A stretch of DNA of 47,296 bases, taken from NCBI GenBank assembly GCA_002070715.1, contig MWDV01000228.1:1-47296 (forward strand). Reading direction: 5' to 3'. The translations under genes were made by a program, and so were the position numbers. Of this stretch, positions 614-41,008 are shown one piece after another. Within the stretch, counting starts at the first letter, position 1, and each line of letters begins with the position of its first letter. Below the pieces are notes generated by a model that saw only the letters and a program-made list of their open reading frames with translations, had not been told where the DNA came from and ran no database searches. The DNA comes from Verrucomicrobia bacterium ADurb.Bin118 (lineage in GTDB: Bacteria > Verrucomicrobiota > Verrucomicrobiia > Limisphaerales > MWDV01).

Positions 614-997
614 ATGGCTACAAAAACCATCGTCAAACCCGCGCAATCACCCGCCGCACTGGGCCCCTACAATCACGCCATCCGGGTGGGCGATCTTCTG
701 TTTTGCGCGGGACAAATTCCGGCGGATCCAGCCACCGGCAACCTTGTCGCCGGCGGCATCCAAGCCCAAACAGAACGCGCGCTCCTAAATGTGAAGGCGA
801 TTTTGGACGACCAGGGCCTCACCTTCGCCCATGTGGTGAAGAGCACGGTCTTCATGGTGAATCTCGCCGATTTCGCCGCCATGAACGAGGTGTACGCCAG
901 GTATTTCACGCACGATTTCCCCGCGCGTTCGACGATTCAAGTCGCCGCCCTGCCCAAAGGTGCCAGCGTGGAGATTGAAGTCGTGGCGCATTTTTGA
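614..997 (+). CDS. ridA: RidA/YjgF family reactive-intermediate deaminase
   Basis: This 127-residue protein has the usual length of the RidA/TdcF/YjgF family. These are cytosolic trimers that hydrolyse 2-aminoacrylate and other enamine/imine by-products of PLP enzymes to 2-ketoacids and ammonia. The family signature is near the C-terminus (AALPKGASVEIEVVA). The catalytic arginine is present at residue 105 in PARSTIQV, the same number as in the E. coli protein, and the N-terminal LGPYNHAI loop is present, so an active deaminase is likely. No strong ribosome binding site is visible before the ATG. It lies between the BNR gene and rmuC on the same strand, with an 111-base gap before it. Confidence 0.93.
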   Translation: MATKTIVKPAQSPAALGPYNHAIRVGDLLFCAGQIPADPATGNLVAGGIQAQTERALLNVKAILDDQGLTFAHVVKSTVFMVNLADFAAMNEVYARYFTHDFPARSTIQVAALPKGASVEIEVVAHF

Positions 998-1076
998 GCG
1001 CGGTGATCTTGGGCGCGGCACACCGGCAACAACGGGATGGGCGGGAGATCGGCCGCCGTTTCACGCGGAGTGAACA

Positions 1077-2444
1077 ATGAACCCCGGTGTTCCCTTATTG
1101 TTGGCCTTCCTCCTCGGTGGTTCGGTGGGCCTGCTGATCGGCTGGTTATGGTGGCGGGGCCGGGCAGATCCAACCGATGACCGGCTCGTCAACGAATTGC
1201 GTCAGCAACTCGGTCAGCGGGAGGCCGAGTTGAATCAGTTGCGCGCCGAGATGGGCCCGCTCAACACCGCGCTTGCCACCGCCGAGGCGCGCCAGGCGGC
1301 GGCGGAGAAACTTCTGGCCGAACAACGCGCCCTGCACGAACGCGTGCTGGCGGAGACGAAAACCGCGCAGGACAAGGCGCTGACGGATTTGCGCGATACT
1401 TTCAAAGCCTTGAGCGCCGATGCCCTCCGACAAACCGCGCCGGAGTTTCTCCGCCTGGCCAATGAAACTTTTGGCAAATTCCAGGAAACGGCGAAGGGCG
1501 ATCTGGCCCAACGCCAGGAGGCGATCAAAGGATTGGTCGAACCGCTCAAGCAACAGTTGGAAACCTATCAAAAACGGTTGCAACAAGCCGAAGGCGCGCA
1601 GGCCGCCACCATCGGCGCGGTGAGAAAACAACTCGAAACGCTCGCCCAACAAAGCCAGACCCTCGCGGCGGAGACGCAGCAGTTCCGCATGGTGCTGCGG
1701 TCAAATCAGGCGCGCGGCCAGTGGGGCGAAGCCACCCTGCGTCGCGTAGTCGAAGCCGCCGGCTTGAGCGCCCACTGCGATTTCAGCGAGCAAACCCAGG
1801 CGGGCGACGCGAAACCGGATCTGATCGTGCGGCTGCCCGGAGACCGGGTCATCATCGTGGACGCCAAAGTTCCCGACTTTGAATTCCTGCAGGCGCTGGA
1901 TGAAGCGGACCCGGGCAAACGCGCGGCAACTTTGGTGGCGCACGCCGCGAAGTTGAAGAACACCATCATTGACCTGGCCCGGCGCGATTATCCGCGCCAA
2001 TTTCCGAACGCCCTTGATCACGTGGTGTTGTTTCTGCCGGCGGAATCGTTGTTCAGCGCCGCGTTGGAAGGCGACCGCGACCTGTTGGTGTGGGCGGCAC
2101 AACGGCGGATTTTACTGGCCACGCCGGCGTCGTTGATTGCGCTGTTGCGCTCCGTGAGTGTGAGCTGGCAGCAACACGCGCAGACCGAGAACGCACAAAA
2201 GATCGCGGTTGCCGCGCGGGAGTTCTATGCGCGCGTGGTGAAATTCACTGAACATTTTGACAAGATCCGCGCCGGCTTGGAACGCGCCAACGATGCGTTC
2301 AATGACGCGGCGGCCAGTTTCCAGTCACGGGTGCGGCCGGCGGGCGAGCGCCTGGCGGAATTGGGCGGCGGCGCGCCCGGCAAGGAACTGGCGGAACTGC
2401 CGCCGGTGGAAAAGGCCTGGCGACTGCCGTTGCCGGAAGGCTGA
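1077..2444 (+). CDS. rmuC: RmuC-type DNA recombination/nuclease-like protein
   Basis: The 455-residue product is a typical RmuC. It has one N-terminal membrane segment (about residues 4-25, VPLLLAFLLGGSVGLLIGWL), a long Ala/Gln/Glu-rich coiled coil to about residue 210, and the conserved RmuC domain starting at GQWGEATLRRVVEAAGL near residue 215. The charged motif VIIVDAKVPDFEFL, expected for a PD-(D/E)XK-like nuclease fold, follows. RmuC limits DNA inversion at short inverted repeats in E. coli; its biochemistry is not well settled. The C-terminal region after about residue 400 is variable. The gene ends at a clear intrinsic terminator and converges on the sugar kinase gene. Confidence 0.93.
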   Translation: MNPGVPLLLAFLLGGSVGLLIGWLWWRGRADPTDDRLVNELRQQLGQREAELNQLRAEMGPLNTALATAEARQAAAEKLLAEQRALHERVLAETKTAQDKALTDLRDTFKALSADALRQTAPEFLRLANETFGKFQETAKGDLAQRQEAIKGLVEPLKQQLETYQKRLQQAEGAQAATIGAVRKQLETLAQQSQTLAAETQQFRMVLRSNQARGQWGEATLRRVVEAAGLSAHCDFSEQTQAGDAKPDLIVRLPGDRVIIVDAKVPDFEFLQALDEADPGKRAATLVAHAAKLKNTIIDLARRDYPRQFPNALDHVVLFLPAESLFSAALEGDRDLLVWAAQRRILLATPASLIALLRSVSVSWQQHAQTENAQKIAVAAREFYARVVKFTEHFDKIRAGLERANDAFNDAAASFQSRVRPAGERLAELGGGAPGKELAELPPVEKAWRLPLPEG

Positions 2445-2458
2445 CCAGGGATTGGTTT

Positions 2459-2494
2459 GCGCCCGTTTGGGGAGGCGGGCGCTACCGTTTTTTT
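2459..2494 (+). terminator. intrinsic terminator of rmuC, overlapping the 3' end of the convergent kinase gene
   Basis: A perfect 7-bp stem (GCGCCCG at 2459-2465 and CGGGCGC at 2476-2482) with a 10-base loop is followed by TACCG and a run of seven T (2488-2494). This has the form of a Rho-independent terminator for plus-strand transcription. The right arm and T-run overlap the stop codon and the last Lys codons of the kinase gene on the other strand. Confidence 0.8.
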
Positions 2495-3642
2495 GTTTTG
2501 CCGGTGGTGCGGCGTCTGCGCACCTCCACCCCGTTCAACTTGTTTACGATCTTTTGCATCGTTTCTTCCTGTTGCGCGATGGATTCCACGAGTTTGAACT
2601 GCGTGCGGCAGCGGTCCAAGTTGTGCCCGGGACGGTGGATGCGGAAGTAATTGTCGCCGTTCAGATAATCCGTGAGGAAACGGATGCCGATTTCGAAGGT
2701 GATGAGTTTGCCGGAAAACGCCATCAATTCCCGTTCGGCTTTGTTCAGGAATTTGCCGGCGGTCGCCAGGTAGCCCTCGGCCAACTTCTCAAAAATCGGC
2801 ATCTGCAGTTTGACCTTGGACAGATCCAGTTCGTCCTCCAGCGTCGGGCTGGTGGTGGTGCGGACCATGTCGCCAAAATCGTAAAGCGCACAGCCGGGCA
2901 TGACGGTGTCGAGGTCCACCACGCACATGGCCTCTCCCGAGACCACATCGAGCATGACATTATTAAATTTGGTGTCGTTGTGCGTGATGCGTTCGGGAAT
3001 TTTGCCTTTGGCCAGCGCCTTCAAAATGACGTCCACAATCTTCTCCTGTTTGAGCGCGAACGCGATTTCCGGGGCGGCTGATTGGGCGCGATTGAGATGA
3101 TCTTTTTGAATGGCTTCCTGCAGGGCGGTGAAGCGCTTGCGGGTATCGTGAAAGTCGGGGATGGTTTCGTGCAACCGGCCGCCGGGCAGGTCCACCAGCA
3201 GATTTTGAAATTCCCCGAAAGCATACCCGGCTTGGTAGGCTTGCCCGGGCGATTGCACTGTTTCGAGCGTATGCACGCCTTCAATGAATACAAACGTGCG
3301 CCAGAAATCCCCGGCCCGGTCCACGTAATATGACTTGCCGCTGCGGGTGGGAATGATCGCGAGACACCGCCGGGTGATGTGGGGCACCCGCATGGATTCG
3401 AGCTTGAACCGCAAATGCGTGCTGACGCGCTCCAAGTTGCGCATGACCGCCGTTGGATTCTTGAAGACGTATTTGTTGATCTTCTGGTGGATGTAACGGA
3501 TCCGCATGCCGCCTTGGTCGTAGGTGGCGGAATACGTTTCGTTGATGTGGCCGATCTTGCAAGTTTCGGCGTGCAGGATTTCGCCGTAAATCTGGAATTG
3601 CTTCGAGATTTCCTGTAGTTGTTTTTCTTGGTAAACGGGCAT
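2482..3642 (-). CDS. NahK/AmgK-type sugar anomeric kinase (aminoglycoside-phosphotransferase fold)
   Basis: The ATG at 3642 gives a 386-residue protein beginning MPVYQEKQLQEI. The longer frame upstream lacks family features. It has the kinase fold of the aminoglycoside phosphotransferase superfamily, with the catalytic loop THNDTKFNNVMLD near residues 217-230 and the metal motif VVDLDTVMPG followed by YDFGDMVR about 20 residues later. This wording closely matches N-acetylhexosamine 1-kinase (NahK) of bifidobacteria. NahK makes GlcNAc/GalNAc-1-phosphate, and the related AmgK acts on MurNAc. The C-terminus is very basic. It is divergent from an AraC regulator, which is followed by a NamZ-like muramidase, so MurNAc or GlcNAc is a reasonable substrate. 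The substrate is inference. Confidence 0.82.
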   Translation of the reverse strand: MPVYQEKQLQEISKQFQIYGEILHAETCKIGHINETYSATYDQGGMRIRYIHQKINKYVFKNPTAVMRNLERVSTHLRFKLESMRVPHITRRCLAIIPTRSGKSYYVDRAGDFWRTFVFIEGVHTLETVQSPGQAYQAGYAFGEFQNLLVDLPGGRLHETIPDFHDTRKRFTALQEAIQKDHLNRAQSAAPEIAFALKQEKIVDVILKALAKGKIPERITHNDTKFNNVMLDVVSGEAMCVVDLDTVMPGCALYDFGDMVRTTTSPTLEDELDLSKVKLQMPIFEKLAEGYLATAGKFLNKAERELMAFSGKLITFEIGIRFLTDYLNGDNYFRIHRPGHNLDRCRTQFKLVESIAQQEETMQKIVNKLNGVEVRRRRTTGKTKKR

Positions 3643-3908
3643 ATCTGCGCGGCATAGTGCAAAGAGACGGGGAGGCTGGCAATCGGAAATCTTGGTCCTG
3701 CCACCCTTTTGCCGCGACGGGCGGGAAGGTGGTATTGCACAAAAACCCCTTGAAAACCGGATAAACCAAAATTGCTGAAGGCAGTTCCTCCCTGCCCCCG
3801 CCGGATTCAATTCCTCCTGATATTTCTCCAAAGTCTGCTAATATACAGCATTAAATGATGGAGATGGCGGGCGTCTGATGCCGCGCTCCATCGGTGGCCT
3901 GACGAATC
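3643..3908. promoter_or_regulatory. divergent promoter region between the sugar kinase and the AraC regulator
   Basis: This 266-base region separates two divergent genes and should contain both promoters and any AraC binding sites. The most AT-rich part, about 3825-3856, holds the imperfect palindrome TGCTAATATACAGCA (about 3837-3851). It includes a TATACA that could serve as a -10 for the araC-type gene. No strong -35 was recognised and no Shine-Dalgarno sequence precedes either start codon. The promoter assignment is weak. Confidence 0.3.
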
Positions 3909-4961
3909 ATGCAAGTAAAAGACCAACACGCATCCGGTGTGGCGGCAAGAGTCCTGCCCGACTCCGGTGAGGCGGGGACATTCAGCGAAGTCCCGGCGTG
4001 GCGGGAGGTGGGCACTGGATGGCAACCGTTGCATGGCGGCTTCCGGGGGGCGGGTTACAGCATCGAATGGCACGATTTCATGGCGCGACGGGAACTGGAT
4101 TGGGCGCGGAGCTTCCATCCGGGCGGAATTGAGTTGTGTCTGAATCTCGAGGGCGAAGGCTTTGTGCAGGGGAACGGGGAACGCCTGACCTTTTCATCGA
4201 ACACGGCCGGCTTCTACCGCTGTGATGCCGAACCGCTCACGGCGCGCCGTATGGCGGGACAGCGCCACCGGTTTTTGACCGTGGAATTTACGGCGGCATT
4301 TCTGGAGCGGCAATTGGCCGGGGCCAAGGCCATCTTGCACCCGCTGGTGCGCGCCGCGTTGGACGGGAACGCGGGGCCGGTGGTGGCGCTGCCGCCCGCG
4401 CGTCTGACCACCGCGCAGCAACAACTGGTGGCGAGCCTGCGGCAGCCGCCGGTGTATGCCGCCGCCCAACCGGTTTGGTCGCAGTGCAAGGCCACCGAAA
4501 TGGCCGTGACCTTTCTCATCCAGCCACTCCCGGAGGCGGAATTGTTTTGCACGCGGCAGCATCGGCTGGCTCAGGAACGCGTGGCCGCAGTGCGGGCCCG
4601 GTTGCAGCGGGCGATAGCGAATCCGCCTTCCCTTGAGGAGCTTGGGCGCGAGATCGGGTGCAGCCACTTTTATCTCAGCCGCATTTTCTCGACGCACACC
4701 GGCCAGACCATCCCGCAATACCTGCGCCAGTTGCGGATGGATCGGGCGGCGGAATTATTGCGGGCGGGCCGGTTCAACGTCACCGAAGTGGCGTTGGAAG
4801 TGGGTTACTCCAGCCTGAGCCATTTCAGCCAGGTTTTTCAGGAAACCTTCGGGTGCTGTCCCGGACTGTATCCGCTGGCCACGTCCACGCAAAAACCCGT
4901 GGCCCGATTGCGGAAACTCGCCCGGCGTCAATCTGGTTCTGGTCCGGGAGACCGGGACTGA
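3909..4961 (+). CDS. AraC family transcriptional regulator
   Basis: The 350-residue protein has the AraC layout: a variable N-terminal sensing domain with a cupin-like SIEWHDFMARRELDW region, then a C-terminal double helix-turn-helix from about residue 228 to 320. The first helix pair shows SLEELGREIGCSHFYLSRIF. The second carries the family signature around VTEVALEVGYSSLSHFSQVF with the usual FQ-x-FG-x-P ending degenerated to ETFGCCPGLYP. The tail is Arg/Ser rich. It is divergent from the sugar kinase and followed by the hydrolase/NamZ fusion gene after 129 bases. A role in controlling amino-sugar or muropeptide use is inferred from this position only. Confidence 0.9.
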   Translation: MQVKDQHASGVAARVLPDSGEAGTFSEVPAWREVGTGWQPLHGGFRGAGYSIEWHDFMARRELDWARSFHPGGIELCLNLEGEGFVQGNGERLTFSSNTAGFYRCDAEPLTARRMAGQRHRFLTVEFTAAFLERQLAGAKAILHPLVRAALDGNAGPVVALPPARLTTAQQQLVASLRQPPVYAAAQPVWSQCKATEMAVTFLIQPLPEAELFCTRQHRLAQERVAAVRARLQRAIANPPSLEELGREIGCSHFYLSRIFSTHTGQTIPQYLRQLRMDRAAELLRAGRFNVTEVALEVGYSSLSHFSQVFQETFGCCPGLYPLATSTQKPVARLRKLARRQSGSGPGDRD

Positions 4962-5090
4962 TTACGCACGGCGGAAGGTTCGGGGAAGGAGGACGTTCGC
5001 TCTCCCAATCGGCGGCGGGTGGGTTGACGCGCGCTCACGCATCCACGATTCAAGTTGTCCGCAGGCCGTCGGGCCGGTTTAATCCTGCGT

Positions 5091-7490
5091 ATGATGACAA
5101 CCATTTCATCTTCGCGCTTTGTTGTCCGTCCCCGTGCGGTCGGCATCTCCACCGGAGTCGGCCTTGTCTGTTTGATTCTCCGGCTGGTGGGGCCGGTGGA
5201 TCTGGCTGCCGCGGTTTTTCGCGCTGATAAACTGGTTGAGATGGACGCGGCCATCACCGCAGCCGTCGCGGAGAAACGCTGTCCGGGCGGCGTGTTGTGG
5301 GTGGAACGCCACAGCGAGTCATACCACAAAGCTCTGGGCAACCGCGCCGTCGCGCCGGTCGTCGAACCAATGACCGAAGATACGATTTTCGACGCCGCCT
5401 CGCTGACCAAAGTCGTGGCCACCACCCCGGCCATCATGCTGTTGGTGGAGCGCGGTCAGGTGGACCTCGATGCGCCGGTGGCCGCTTTCCTGCCGGAGTT
5501 CAGGGCCAATGGTAAGGATGCGGTGACCGTGCGGCAGTTGATGACGCACACGTCCGGGCTTCGGCCCGGCATTGGGCGAAACCCGGATTGGCACGGCTAC
5601 GACAAGGGCATTGAACTGGCCTGCGCCGAAAAATTGGTGACCCCGCCGGGCACGGTGTTTCGTTACAGCGACATCAACTTCATCGTGCTGGGGGAGATCG
5701 TGCATCGTGTATCGGGCCAGCCGCTCGATGCCTTCACGGCCCGGGAAATTTTCACCCCGTTACGGATGGTGGACACCGGTTTCCGACCGTCCCGGGAAAA
5801 ACTGGCGCGTATTGCGCCCACCGAAACCCTGGCCAGCGGCGAGGTGTTGCGCGGCGTGGTGCATGACCCTACCGCGCGTCGCATGGACGGCGTCGCGGGA
5901 CACGCGGGTTTGTTCTTCACGGCGGCGGACGTGGCGCGCTACGCCCGGATGATGCTCAATCTCGGCGAACTCGAAGGAGTGCGCCTCTTCAAGCCGGAAA
6001 CGGTGCAATTGATGACCCGTGTGCAAACCGCCGACCGGGTTGGCGCGTGGCGCGGGTTGGGATGGGACATTGATTCCAGTTACAGCGGCCCCCGGGGAAA
6101 AGTGTTCCCCTTGGGATCCTACGGGCACACCGGCTGGACGGGCACGTCGCTGTGGATTGATCCCTTATCGCAAACCTTCGTGATCTTTCTGTCGAATCGA
6201 AATCATCCCACGGAGCAGGGCAATGTGCTGCCGTTGCGGGCCCGGCTCGGCACGCTGGCGGGCGAAGCCGTGATCGGATTCAACTTCGCCTCCCCGGCGG
6301 GGGCGCTTCCGCCCCGCGTCGTTGAAACCAACGCGCCCGCCGCGGCGCCGCGTCCGCTTAAATCCGCGCGCGTGCTCAACGGCATTGACGTGCTGGTGCA
6401 ACAAAATTTCGCTCCGCTCCGCGGCAAACGCATTGGCCTCATCACCAACCACACCGGTCAGGACCGCCAGCGGCGCGCAACCATTGACCTGCTTCATCAA
6501 GCCCCGGGGGTTACGCTGGTCAAACTGTTCGCTCCGGAACACGGCATTCGCGGCACGCAGGACGCCCGGATCAGTGACAGCACGGATGAACAAACGGGGC
6601 TGCCCATTCTGAGTTTGTACGGTGCGACGCGCAAACCCCAGCCCGAGCAGTTGCAAGACCTCGACGCGCTGGTTTATGACATCCAGGACATCGGCTGCCG
6701 GTTTTACACCTATCCCTCCACCCTGGGGCTGGCCATCGAAGCGGCGGCGGAAAACCACAAGGAGATTTTTGTGCTCGACCGGGTGAATCCCATCACCGGC
6801 ACGATGATGGATGGTCCCGTGCTGGCCGAGCCGCCCACCTTTGTCGGTTTTTATCCGGTGCCGTTGCGCCACGGTTTGACCGTGGGCGAACTCGCCCAAA
6901 TGCACAATGCGGACAAAAAATTGAACGCGCGGCTGACCGTGATTGCGTGCGAAAATTACACCCGCGATCTGTGGTATGACGAAACCGGGTTGCCGTGGAC
7001 GAATCCCTCGCCGAACATGCGCAACCTCAAGCAGGCCATCCTGTATCCGGGCGTCGGGCTGTTGGAATCCGCGCTCTCGGTGGGGCGGGGGACCGACACG
7101 CCGTTTGAAGTGGTCGGCGCGCCCTACATTGACGATGGGAAACTGGCGGCGGAACTCAATAGCGCCAAGCTGCCCGGTGTGAGTTTCATTCCCATCCGGT
7201 TCACCCCCACCACCAGCATCCATCGCGGCAAAGAATGCGGCGGCGTCTATATCATGTTGAACGACCGCGACGCCTGTCCGGTGGTGGACGTGGGACTGCT
7301 CATCGCCAAAACCGTGTTTCGCCTGTATCCGAACGATTTTGATCCCCAAAAAATGCGACGATTGCTGCTGCACTCGCGCACGCTGGACCAAGTGCGGGCG
7401 GACAAACCGCTGGGCGAAATTCGCGCGGGCTGGCGGATTGAAGGCGTCGAGTATGCGCAATGGCGCGAAAAGTTCCTGCTCTATCGTTGA
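5091..7490 (+). CDS. fusion of a beta-lactamase-fold serine hydrolase with a NamZ-type exo-beta-N-acetylmuramidase (DUF1343)
   Basis: The ATG at 5091 (a second ATG follows at 5094) gives 799 residues. Residues about 20-42 form a signal or anchor segment. Residues about 55-400 are a class C beta-lactamase/AmpH-like domain with S-x-x-K as SLTK at 104-107, Y-x-N as YSDIN near 191, and HTG as HTGWTG near 345. From about residue 425 a complete DUF1343/NamZ domain follows, with IGLITNHTG, LFAPEHGIRG, DIQDIGCRFYTY and VLDRVNPI. NamZ removes the non-reducing terminal MurNAc from peptidoglycan chains. In Bacillus subtilis the adjacent ybbE/amiE product is a beta-lactamase-like amidase, so this looks like one-polypeptide wall recycling. 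Amidase rather than peptidase activity for the first half is inference. Confidence 0.85.
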   Translation: MMTTISSSRFVVRPRAVGISTGVGLVCLILRLVGPVDLAAAVFRADKLVEMDAAITAAVAEKRCPGGVLWVERHSESYHKALGNRAVAPVVEPMTEDTIFDAASLTKVVATTPAIMLLVERGQVDLDAPVAAFLPEFRANGKDAVTVRQLMTHTSGLRPGIGRNPDWHGYDKGIELACAEKLVTPPGTVFRYSDINFIVLGEIVHRVSGQPLDAFTAREIFTPLRMVDTGFRPSREKLARIAPTETLASGEVLRGVVHDPTARRMDGVAGHAGLFFTAADVARYARMMLNLGELEGVRLFKPETVQLMTRVQTADRVGAWRGLGWDIDSSYSGPRGKVFPLGSYGHTGWTGTSLWIDPLSQTFVIFLSNRNHPTEQGNVLPLRARLGTLAGEAVIGFNFASPAGALPPRVVETNAPAAAPRPLKSARVLNGIDVLVQQNFAPLRGKRIGLITNHTGQDRQRRATIDLLHQAPGVTLVKLFAPEHGIRGTQDARISDSTDEQTGLPILSLYGATRKPQPEQLQDLDALVYDIQDIGCRFYTYPSTLGLAIEAAAENHKEIFVLDRVNPITGTMMDGPVLAEPPTFVGFYPVPLRHGLTVGELAQMHNADKKLNARLTVIACENYTRDLWYDETGLPWTNPSPNMRNLKQAILYPGVGLLESALSVGRGTDTPFEVVGAPYIDDGKLAAELNSAKLPGVSFIPIRFTPTTSIHRGKECGGVYIMLNDRDACPVVDVGLLIAKTVFRLYPNDFDPQKMRRLLLHSRTLDQVRADKPLGEIRAGWRIEGVEYAQWREKFLLYR

Positions 7491-38865: not shown

Positions 38866-39376
38866 GCATTCCGCGGTCACATCGGAACGCGACGGTTCTG
38901 AAAGCTGGTCACCGCGTATTCGAAGTGTAAACATGTTTCGGCTGGACTGCGAAGCAGCCGCGTTCCGATTTATAACATGAGGAGAATATACGGTGGTCAA
39001 TCTCTGAGCCTACCGTTGGAGGCGCGTCCTTTTTCCTGGACACGAACGTCCGGATTTCATTCGCCACCAGCTCCGCTGCGGACGCTACTCGTTGCCGATG
39101 TTGCCCGCCGTCATCGTGCGATCAAAATGTTAGAGCGTGCAAGGCCCCCGCCAGGGTGGGCGGGCTATTGAGACGCGGCCGCATCGCTGAAACAGAGGGA
39201 AAATGCCAATTATCCTATCTCGCTGAATGACCCGCAAGGTTGCTGGCGCCGAAATTCGCCCTCTTTGCCTCACCCGAAACTCTGCCGCAACGGTGGGTAA
39301 ATCACCTGATCGGACCTCTGGGCTTGCCAACACCTGGGTTGCCCGAGAAACTTACGCTGCGTCAGCACCGCCGAAC
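38866..39376. other. 511-base gene-free region downstream of the IS remnants
   Basis: No reading frame with family features was found. It contains an 89-base inverted-repeat element (38881-38969) and then unremarkable sequence up to the next gene. It should hold the promoter of the PqaA-like gene, but no convincing hexamers were recognised. Confidence 0.4.
38881..38969. repeat. inverted-repeat element with 11-bp perfect arms
   Basis: ATCGGAACGCG at 38881-38891 is exactly complementary to CGCGTTCCGAT at 38959-38969. It lies 15 bases after the IS630-family pseudogene stop. It could be a leftover of that element or a separate palindromic intergenic repeat. Confidence 0.45.
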
Positions 39377-41008
39377 ATGAAGATTAAAACCCTAAAAACC
39401 GCCCAATCGGAAATCCACCAACTCAGCTTTTATCTGAAGCTGTACACTGCACTGCTCTTTCTCGGCCTGGCAGTCACCCCGTTAGATTCGCCCGCCGCCT
39501 CGCAGTTAGCGGCACAGTGGCGTTCCAGCGACCACCAACTCGAACTGTCCCTGACCGGCACGACCGGCAAGTGGTATCGCATCGAGGTCTCCACCGATTT
39601 ACAGCATTGGCAGGCGCTCACCAACCTTTGGCAAACCAATCCGGTGACCACGTGGGTAGACGCGGATTCCACCAACGCACCCACACGTTTCTATCGTTCC
39701 CTGCAGTTGTCCGCGCTGGATCTTTACGTCGCCGCGCCCGATACGAATTATACTTGGACGCTCGCCAGAACCATTCCTGGCACGGGGCAAACAACCTACG
39801 TGCTCGATCTGACTTCACAATCCTGGCTGACGCCTGCCGAGGTAAATCGCACTATTTGGAAGCACTGGTTGATTGTGGTGAAACCTGATAACACCACCAA
39901 CTCGCATGCCCTGCTCTTTATCTCCGGCGGCAGCAATCCCGGTTCCCTGCCCTCCAGTGCGGACGCCAATCTGCGCCAGATTGCACTCGATACCGGTACG
40001 GTGGTGGCTGAACTCAAGATGGTGCCAAATCAGCCGCTGACCTTTGCCCCAGAAACCAAAGGGCGCACTGAAGATTCGCTCATTGCGTTTAATTGGGACA
40101 AATTCATGCGTACCGGCGATGAACGCTGGCCCACGCGTCTGCCGATGACGAAAGCCGCGGTGCGCGCAATGGATACGATCACCGCGTTTTGCGCCACCGC
40201 ACCCGGCGGCGGTTGGACGGTGGATAAATTCGTTGTTGCGGGCGCCTCGAAGCGCGGTTGGACTACTTGGACGACGGCCGCCGTGGATCCGCGGGTGGTG
40301 GGCATCGTGCCGACGGTGATTGACGTGTTGAACGTGGAAGTTTCCATGGCGCACCATTATTCCGCTCACGGCTTCTGGTCGCCGGCCATTGACGACTACG
40401 TGGAGATGGATATTCCATCCCGCTTCGGCACACCGGAGTTTCACGCGCTGATGGAGATTTCCGATCCGTACTCTTACATTGGCCGCTACACGATGCCGAA
40501 GTTCATCGTAAATTCCTCCGGCGATCAGTTCTTTCTGCCGGATTCTTCGCAATTCTATTTCGATACATTGCCCGGCGTGAAGTATCTGCGTTACATCCCC
40601 AACAGCTCGCACTCCATGAGTGGAACGGATTATCCCACCTCGTTGCGCGCTTATTATGAATCCGTCATTTTCCAAACGCCGTTGCCGCAATTTTCCTGGA
40701 CGCTGCAATCATCCAACACCGTCCGGATCGTCGCCACTGATCCGCCCACGGAAGTCAAGCTCTGGCAGGCCAGCAATGCCAATGCGCGCGACTTTCGGCT
40801 CGGTACCATCGGTCCGGCCTGGCAGAGCACCAATTTGTCTGATCAAGGCGGCGGCGTTTATCTCGGTGCAGTAACCACCCCCACGCAAGGCTGGCGCGCG
40901 TCCTTCGTGGAATTGACTTACACCCGCTCCGGCAATCTCGCGCCGCTGAAATTCACAACGCAAGTGTATGTCGTGCCGGACATCCTGCCGTTCCAATATC
41001 CGCCCTGA
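39377..41008 (+). CDS. secreted PqaA-like (PhoPQ-activated pathogenicity-related) alpha/beta-hydrolase-fold protein
   Basis: The ATG at 39377 gives 543 residues with a signal peptide (about residues 18-40, KLYTALLFLGLAVTPLDSPAA). Residues about 45-110 form a small beta-rich module (KWYRIEVSTDLQHWQALTN to RFYRS) that is frequent in verrucomicrobial exported proteins. The remainder matches the PqaA family (PF10142), with SHALLFISGGSN, the likely nucleophile in VAGASKRGWTTWTTAA, DPYSYIGRY, KFIVNSSGDQFFLPDS and the likely catalytic histidine in NSSHSMSG. In Salmonella PqaA affects resistance to antimicrobial peptides; the biochemical role is unknown. Dictyostelium AprA is another member. Confidence 0.85.
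   Translation: MKIKTLKTAQSEIHQLSFYLKLYTALLFLGLAVTPLDSPAASQLAAQWRSSDHQLELSLTGTTGKWYRIEVSTDLQHWQALTNLWQTNPVTTWVDADSTNAPTRFYRSLQLSALDLYVAAPDTNYTWTLARTIPGTGQTTYVLDLTSQSWLTPAEVNRTIWKHWLIVVKPDNTTNSHALLFISGGSNPGSLPSSADANLRQIALDTGTVVAELKMVPNQPLTFAPETKGRTEDSLIAFNWDKFMRTGDERWPTRLPMTKAAVRAMDTITAFCATAPGGGWTVDKFVVAGASKRGWTTWTTAAVDPRVVGIVPTVIDVLNVEVSMAHHYSAHGFWSPAIDDYVEMDIPSRFGTPEFHALMEISDPYSYIGRYTMPKFIVNSSGDQFFLPDSSQFYFDTLPGVKYLRYIPNSSHSMSGTDYPTSLRAYYESVIFQTPLPQFSWTLQSSNTVRIVATDPPTEVKLWQASNANARDFRLGTIGPAWQSTNLSDQGGGVYLGAVTTPTQGWRASFVELTYTRSGNLAPLKFTTQVYVVPDILPFQYPP

Follow-up and report, generated by a model that had tools for sequence, protein, structure and literature searches.

The window, a stretch of 47,296 nucleotides from Verrucomicrobia bacterium ADurb.Bin118, carries, side by side, the genes for a kinase of the NahK family, an AraC-family regulator and a protein in which an S12 hydrolase domain is fused to a NamZ domain (Table 1). 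The question raised by this arrangement is whether the three genes form a self-contained group for the salvage of cell wall sugars, as an earlier note on this DNA had proposed, or are adjacent by chance. Judging by sequence comparison, the fusion is a well-conserved bifunctional enzyme of a known kind that stands beside probably unrelated genes. The reading we favor, with somewhat better than even confidence, is that the exported fusion strips and frees MurNAc, which would then be used via MurNAc-6-P and MurQ, that the kinase belongs to a RidA-RmuC neighbourhood, and that the AraC gene is a newcomer.

Table 1. Genes and protein domains at the left end of the window
Feature	Position	Strand	Details and basis
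RidA, conserved neighbour of RmuC and kinase	614..997	+	TIGR00004 over cut-off
RmuC, conserved kinase neighbour	1077..2444	+	PF02646; convergent order kept in 8 of 20 relatives
NahK-family sugar 1-kinase	2482..3642	-	386 aa; 41% identity to B. longum NahK; synteny
AraC-family regulator	3909..4961	+	PF12833, 80 bits; adjoins neither neighbour in relatives
S12 hydrolase-NamZ fusion	5091..7490	+	799 aa from ATG 5091; Pfam, orthologues, two-part model
S12 beta-lactamase-fold domain	5210..6290	+	approximately residues 40-400; PF00144, invariant motifs
Linker	6291..6365	+	residues 401-425, pLDDT <50
NamZ domain (N and C parts)	6366..7487	+	PF07075 and PF20732 end to end; PEHG motif, E483

The S12-NamZ fusion protein

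The presence of a beta-lactamase-fold domain and a complete NamZ domain in one protein, originally noticed from the sequence alone, was confirmed by Pfam profile searches, in which PF00144 (235 bits), NamZ_N PF07075 (266 bits, profile positions 1-202 of 203) and NamZ_C PF20732 (133 bits, positions 1-152 of 152) all scored over their cut-offs; the domain matches of the fusion, the kinase and the AraC protein are all far above chance. Among 30 full-length orthologues, with 53-72% identity, the S12 motifs S104xxK107, Y192-S-D194 and H346-T-G348 are invariant, and so is P482-E483-H484-G485 of the NamZ domain, in which E483 is, presumably, the catalytic glutamate. The protein thus combines the PF00144 fold and the SxxK, Y-x-x and H/K-T-G motifs of S12 hydrolases with the complete N and C domains and the conserved PEHG glutamate of the NamZ exo-beta-N-acetylmuramidases (GH171). 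The N-terminus, judged by eye, resembles a signal peptide, and the protein is probably secreted.

The alignment-based structural model (pLDDT 79, pTM 0.55), which was used instead of a single-sequence model with pLDDT 30, shows two folded parts with a linker of low confidence between them, and the mutual placement of the two domains in it is not to be read. The NamZ part matches a Bacteroides DUF1343 structure (4k05; 39% identity, TM 0.88 by target length). The structures nearest to the S12 part are EstG and family VIII esterases, and its best NCBIfam match is PBP4B, at 148 bits, below the cut-off of 385; neither of these best named relatives, PBP4B and EstG, is a proven amidase.

That an S12 hydrolase and NamZ are coupled, another point of the earlier note, is borne out by the retention of the fusion across phyla and by four genomes from one family of the order in which the two genes are separate but directly adjacent. 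The lone S12 proteins of these genomes are 68-69% identical to the S12 domain from the window and nest among fused S12 domains in a tree; their NamZ partners are ~41% identical to that of the window, lie outside the clade of fused NamZ, and join NamZ from the window's own genome on long branches, so that this join may be false. That S12 and NamZ are kept together in two different ways argues that they act together. In one of the loci (L117:3411-8232(+)), genes for a PBP4-type S13 peptidase, NamZ and S12 are arranged head to tail, and the first two overlap by 4 bases. A gene of the mandelate-racemase/epimerase family lies downstream of this set. The window's genome itself encodes two more NamZ proteins without an S12 fusion, on separate contigs (C209:2070-2678 and C363:588-1202).

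NamZ, an exo-enzyme, probably requires MurNAc ends that carry no peptide, so a joined peptide-removing domain would explain how the protein copes with natural muropeptides. We propose that the fusion is exported and hydrolyses peptidoglycan fragments as a bifunctional enzyme: the S12 domain would, most likely, strip the peptide off MurNAc, a role resembling that of AmiE, and the NamZ domain would then free the bared MurNAc at the non-reducing end. It is possible, but considerably less probable, that the fusion acts in this manner with an S12 half that, instead of being a MurNAc-L-Ala amidase, works as a D-amino-acid carboxypeptidase or endopeptidase, or as an esterase. The S12 fold serves all these reactions, and the match to PBP4B, although below the cut-off, and the proximity of EstG and the family VIII esterases are consistent with such activities, but S12 is repeatedly paired with NamZ, a partner that probably needs peptide-free MurNAc. 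In Bacillus subtilis, namZ corresponds to ybbC. Furthermore, AmiE, itself a PF00144 protein, neighbours NamZ in B. subtilis (PMC5061867, PMC10653849), within the muropeptide rescue cluster murQ-murR-murP-amiE-nagZ-ybbC (PMC5061867), and, by analogy with AmiE, amidase activity of the S12 domain appears most likely. As in that cluster, a PF00144 amidase and NamZ would share one pool of muropeptides, and MurQ would follow downstream (PMC5061867). In B. subtilis, however, these are separate genes combined with PTS uptake, whereas in the window the amidase-like domain and NamZ form one protein, and MurQ is fused to a kinase on another contig.

Distribution and neighbours of the fusion in other phyla

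A scan over the genomes of 84,980 species recovered at least 578 relatives of the fusion. The best 80 of these come from Verrucomicrobiota, Acidobacteriota, Planctomycetota, Armatimonadetes, Candidatus Magnetominusculus, Steroidobacteraceae and Syntrophales, mostly from metagenome-assembled genomes, with complete genomes including those of Singulisphaera acidiphila and Adhaeretor mobilis; the nearest named records among the matches listed belong to Verrucomicrobia subdivision 3/Limisphaerales. Given its conservation in more than half of the sampled families of the order and in several phyla, the fusion architecture is old and common. It had been tabulated as DDPept-DUF1343 in a 2008 survey of serine proteases, and the two Pfam domains are arranged there as they are here (PMC2605481). 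That entry comprised one protein with no function given (PMC2605481), whereas the present survey found the architecture in far more than a hundred genomes. It is widespread among phyla of soil and freshwater, whose wall recycling has been little studied by experiment.

Outside Verrucomicrobiota, the neighbours of the fusion point to MurNAc use. A sodium symporter is encoded near the fusion in 12 of the 80 named loci, MurQ in seven (five from Acidobacteria, with shared ancestry, and two from Planctomycetes), a NagZ-like GH3 enzyme in three and a NagK-type kinase in two. By chance, ~0.1 MurQ gene would be expected in the ~0.62 Mb of flanking sequence searched, assuming one MurQ per 5 Mb. In Singulisphaera acidiphila (NC_019892; L209:3489-9227(+)), the genes for the symporter, the fusion, MurQ and the NagK-type kinase lie on one strand, and by its gene content this locus is a candidate for a complete cluster of MurNAc uptake and use. 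It resembles the operon of Tannerella forsythia, which consists of MurT (sodium symporter), MurK (MurNAc 6-kinase) and MurQ (etherase), in combining a transporter of the sodium symporter type, a kinase and MurQ (PMC5790795). The T. forsythia operon, however, lacks the hydrolase fusion, and in the window's genome the kinase and MurQ are one protein. The symporter, MurQ and the kinase beside the fusion outline a testable pathway for the uptake and use of a sugar that only bacteria are known to make.

Gene order around the kinase and the regulator

The window's family is represented by its own genome only and, therefore, we surveyed synteny across 293 genomes of the order. The full-length fusion is present in at least 133 of these genomes and the kinase in 140, and AraC orthologues are found in 151 genomes, where they are located elsewhere. 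With the window's genome excluded, none of the 72 genomes listed with both the fusion and the kinase has them on one contig, and the same holds for the fusion and the AraC gene (0 of 66); the kinase and AraC genes are adjacent in none of the 64 genomes that have both, and the single contig they share is a whole chromosome on which they lie 1.1 Mb apart. Because contigs are often short, the flanking sequences of the loci were read as well. Within the order, where the fusion has no conserved neighbour, 20 loci of the fusion, between 7.7 and 19 kb long, contain neither the kinase nor AraC, and neither gene is present in any of the 80 named fusion loci, for which as much as 5 kb was read on either side. 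Co-occurrence of the fusion and the kinase over genomes is weak (odds ratio 1.7, p 0.03, for the matches listed and ignoring kinship) and was not used as evidence. Thus, the three-gene order, which the earlier note had proposed to look for in related genomes, is never found in these relatives, an outcome that the note had named as refuting its claim, and a three-gene salvage unit was rejected on synteny; the kinase and AraC look like chance neighbours of the fusion rather than its partners. A trio that seems meaningful in a single genome can be a positional accident.

The kinase has a different conserved context. The arrangement of RidA, RmuC and the convergent kinase gene at 614-3642 of the window is kept in 8 of the 20 kinase loci of relatives, although, in two or three of these, a few kb separate RmuC from the kinase. 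This preserved order places the kinase in the RidA-RmuC neighbourhood, and we judge it to lie, probably, outside the system of the fusion. The identification of the gene as encoding a NahK-like kinase stands: the protein matches the B. longum NahK structures 4wh1/4ocj (263 bits, E 4e-77) over 355 columns, nearly the full length; HNDTKFNN and DLDTVMPG align with HNDTKLNN and DLDTIMPG of B. longum NahK, respectively; and PF01636 scores 55.6 bits against a cut-off of 23.2. With full-length similarity and the HNDTK and DLDT motifs, the protein is assigned to the NahK N-acetylhexosamine 1-kinases. The initial 449-residue frame, in contrast, starts too early; the open frame spans 2482-3831(-), but the NahK homology begins a few residues past the ATG at 3642 and the frame up to 3831 adds none. 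Given this similarity, the kinase likely accepts an amino sugar. NahK is known to act on GlcNAc and GalNAc (PMC8106489), one of which should be the substrate here as well; the kinase probably serves other purposes by supplying GlcNAc-1-P or GalNAc-1-P. The gene context differs from that of B. longum NahK, which belongs to a lacto-N-biose cluster. A search for lacto-N-biose phosphorylase in the window's genome, which is ~81% complete, gave no match, and control queries were equally silent.

The AraC regulator is present, as originally described, and is divergent from the kinase across 266 bp; it shares its strand with the fusion, at a distance of 129 bp. This layout would fit a young local regulon of this lineage, with the fusion, and perhaps also the kinase, brought under the control of the newly placed AraC protein; the relatives compared come from other families of the order. 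We consider such control unlikely, given that adjacency is its sole support and that the orthologues of the regulator lie elsewhere in the order. The AraC gene is more plausibly a local newcomer. In two relatives, the gene next to the AraC orthologue encodes a small protein that looks secreted and is similar in both (L113:2538-3353(+) and L110:121-939(-)); the L113 protein matches DUF6662.

A probable route of MurNAc in the window's genome

At ~81% completeness, absences from the window's genome are weak evidence, but the etherase route is clearly present. Another contig (C87; L232:1377-3266(+)) encodes a 629-residue protein in which a BadF/NagK-type kinase domain (PF01869, 80.7 bits) is followed by MurQ (344 bits, cut-off 168), so that both MurQ and a predicted NagK/MurK-type kinase of the 6-phosphate etherase route are found in this genome; AnmK is present as well (362 bits). 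Many MurQ matches in the order sit in frames of comparable length, roughly 600-700 residues, and in all five that were scanned, from the window's genome and four relatives, both domains are present. Most likely, the fusion is linked to MurQ, considering the gene context in other phyla and the presence of both in the window's genome. We propose that the freed MurNAc is imported and then phosphorylated at C6 by the NagK-like kinase domain, and that the MurQ domain of the same 629-residue protein would turn MurNAc-6-P into GlcNAc-6-phosphate. The ~81% of the genome available yielded no identifiable MurNAc transporter. More generally, and tentatively, with slightly less than even confidence, MurNAc use in these Verrucomicrobiota may rely on exported amidase-NamZ and cytoplasmic NagK-like-MurQ fusions that are encoded apart, with the S12 protein of one family of the order having shed its NamZ domain and paired with a different NamZ from a gene of its own.

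An anomeric route, with the kinase, AraC and the fusion acting as one unit and MurNAc-1-P or GlcNAc-1-P from the kinase passing straight to a nucleotide sugar in the manner of AmgK-MurU, appears very improbable. The three genes are adjacent in the window, members of the kinase's family work on the anomeric position, the first step, as with AmgK-MurU, would fall to an APH-fold kinase that targets C1, and there is a MurU-like protein of 255 residues on contig C325 that matches over its full length. This protein, however, scores 120 bits, less than half the cut-off of 250, and fares better with another model, so that an anomeric route as such is no more than possible; none of the seven sugar nucleotidyltransferases scanned in this ~81% complete genome exceeded the MurU cut-off, and most are RmlA-, GlgC-, cytidylyl-, mannose-1-P- or GlmU-like. 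The trio is never adjacent in relatives, the kinase is tied to RidA-RmuC, and the known substrates of NahK are GlcNAc and GalNAc (PMC8106489). Moreover, this genome, in contrast to AmgK-MurU systems, has MurQ, and with the etherase route present the NahK-family kinase is not needed for MurNAc use; the match of the kinase is to NahK, with which it was compared directly. The claim of a self-contained group coupling the fusion to the kinase and the regulator was, accordingly, abandoned in favor of the etherase reading.

As a candidate for a second APH kinase that could serve as AmgK, the genome yielded only two weak matches. Contig C69 (L228:1034-3016(+)) encodes a protein with a galactokinase domain behind a GlmU-like nucleotidyltransferase domain, in a frame that exits the locus. 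Elsewhere in the window, at 39227-41008(+), a PhoPQ_related family protein is encoded (PF10142, 414 bits), and the genome is seemingly environmental.
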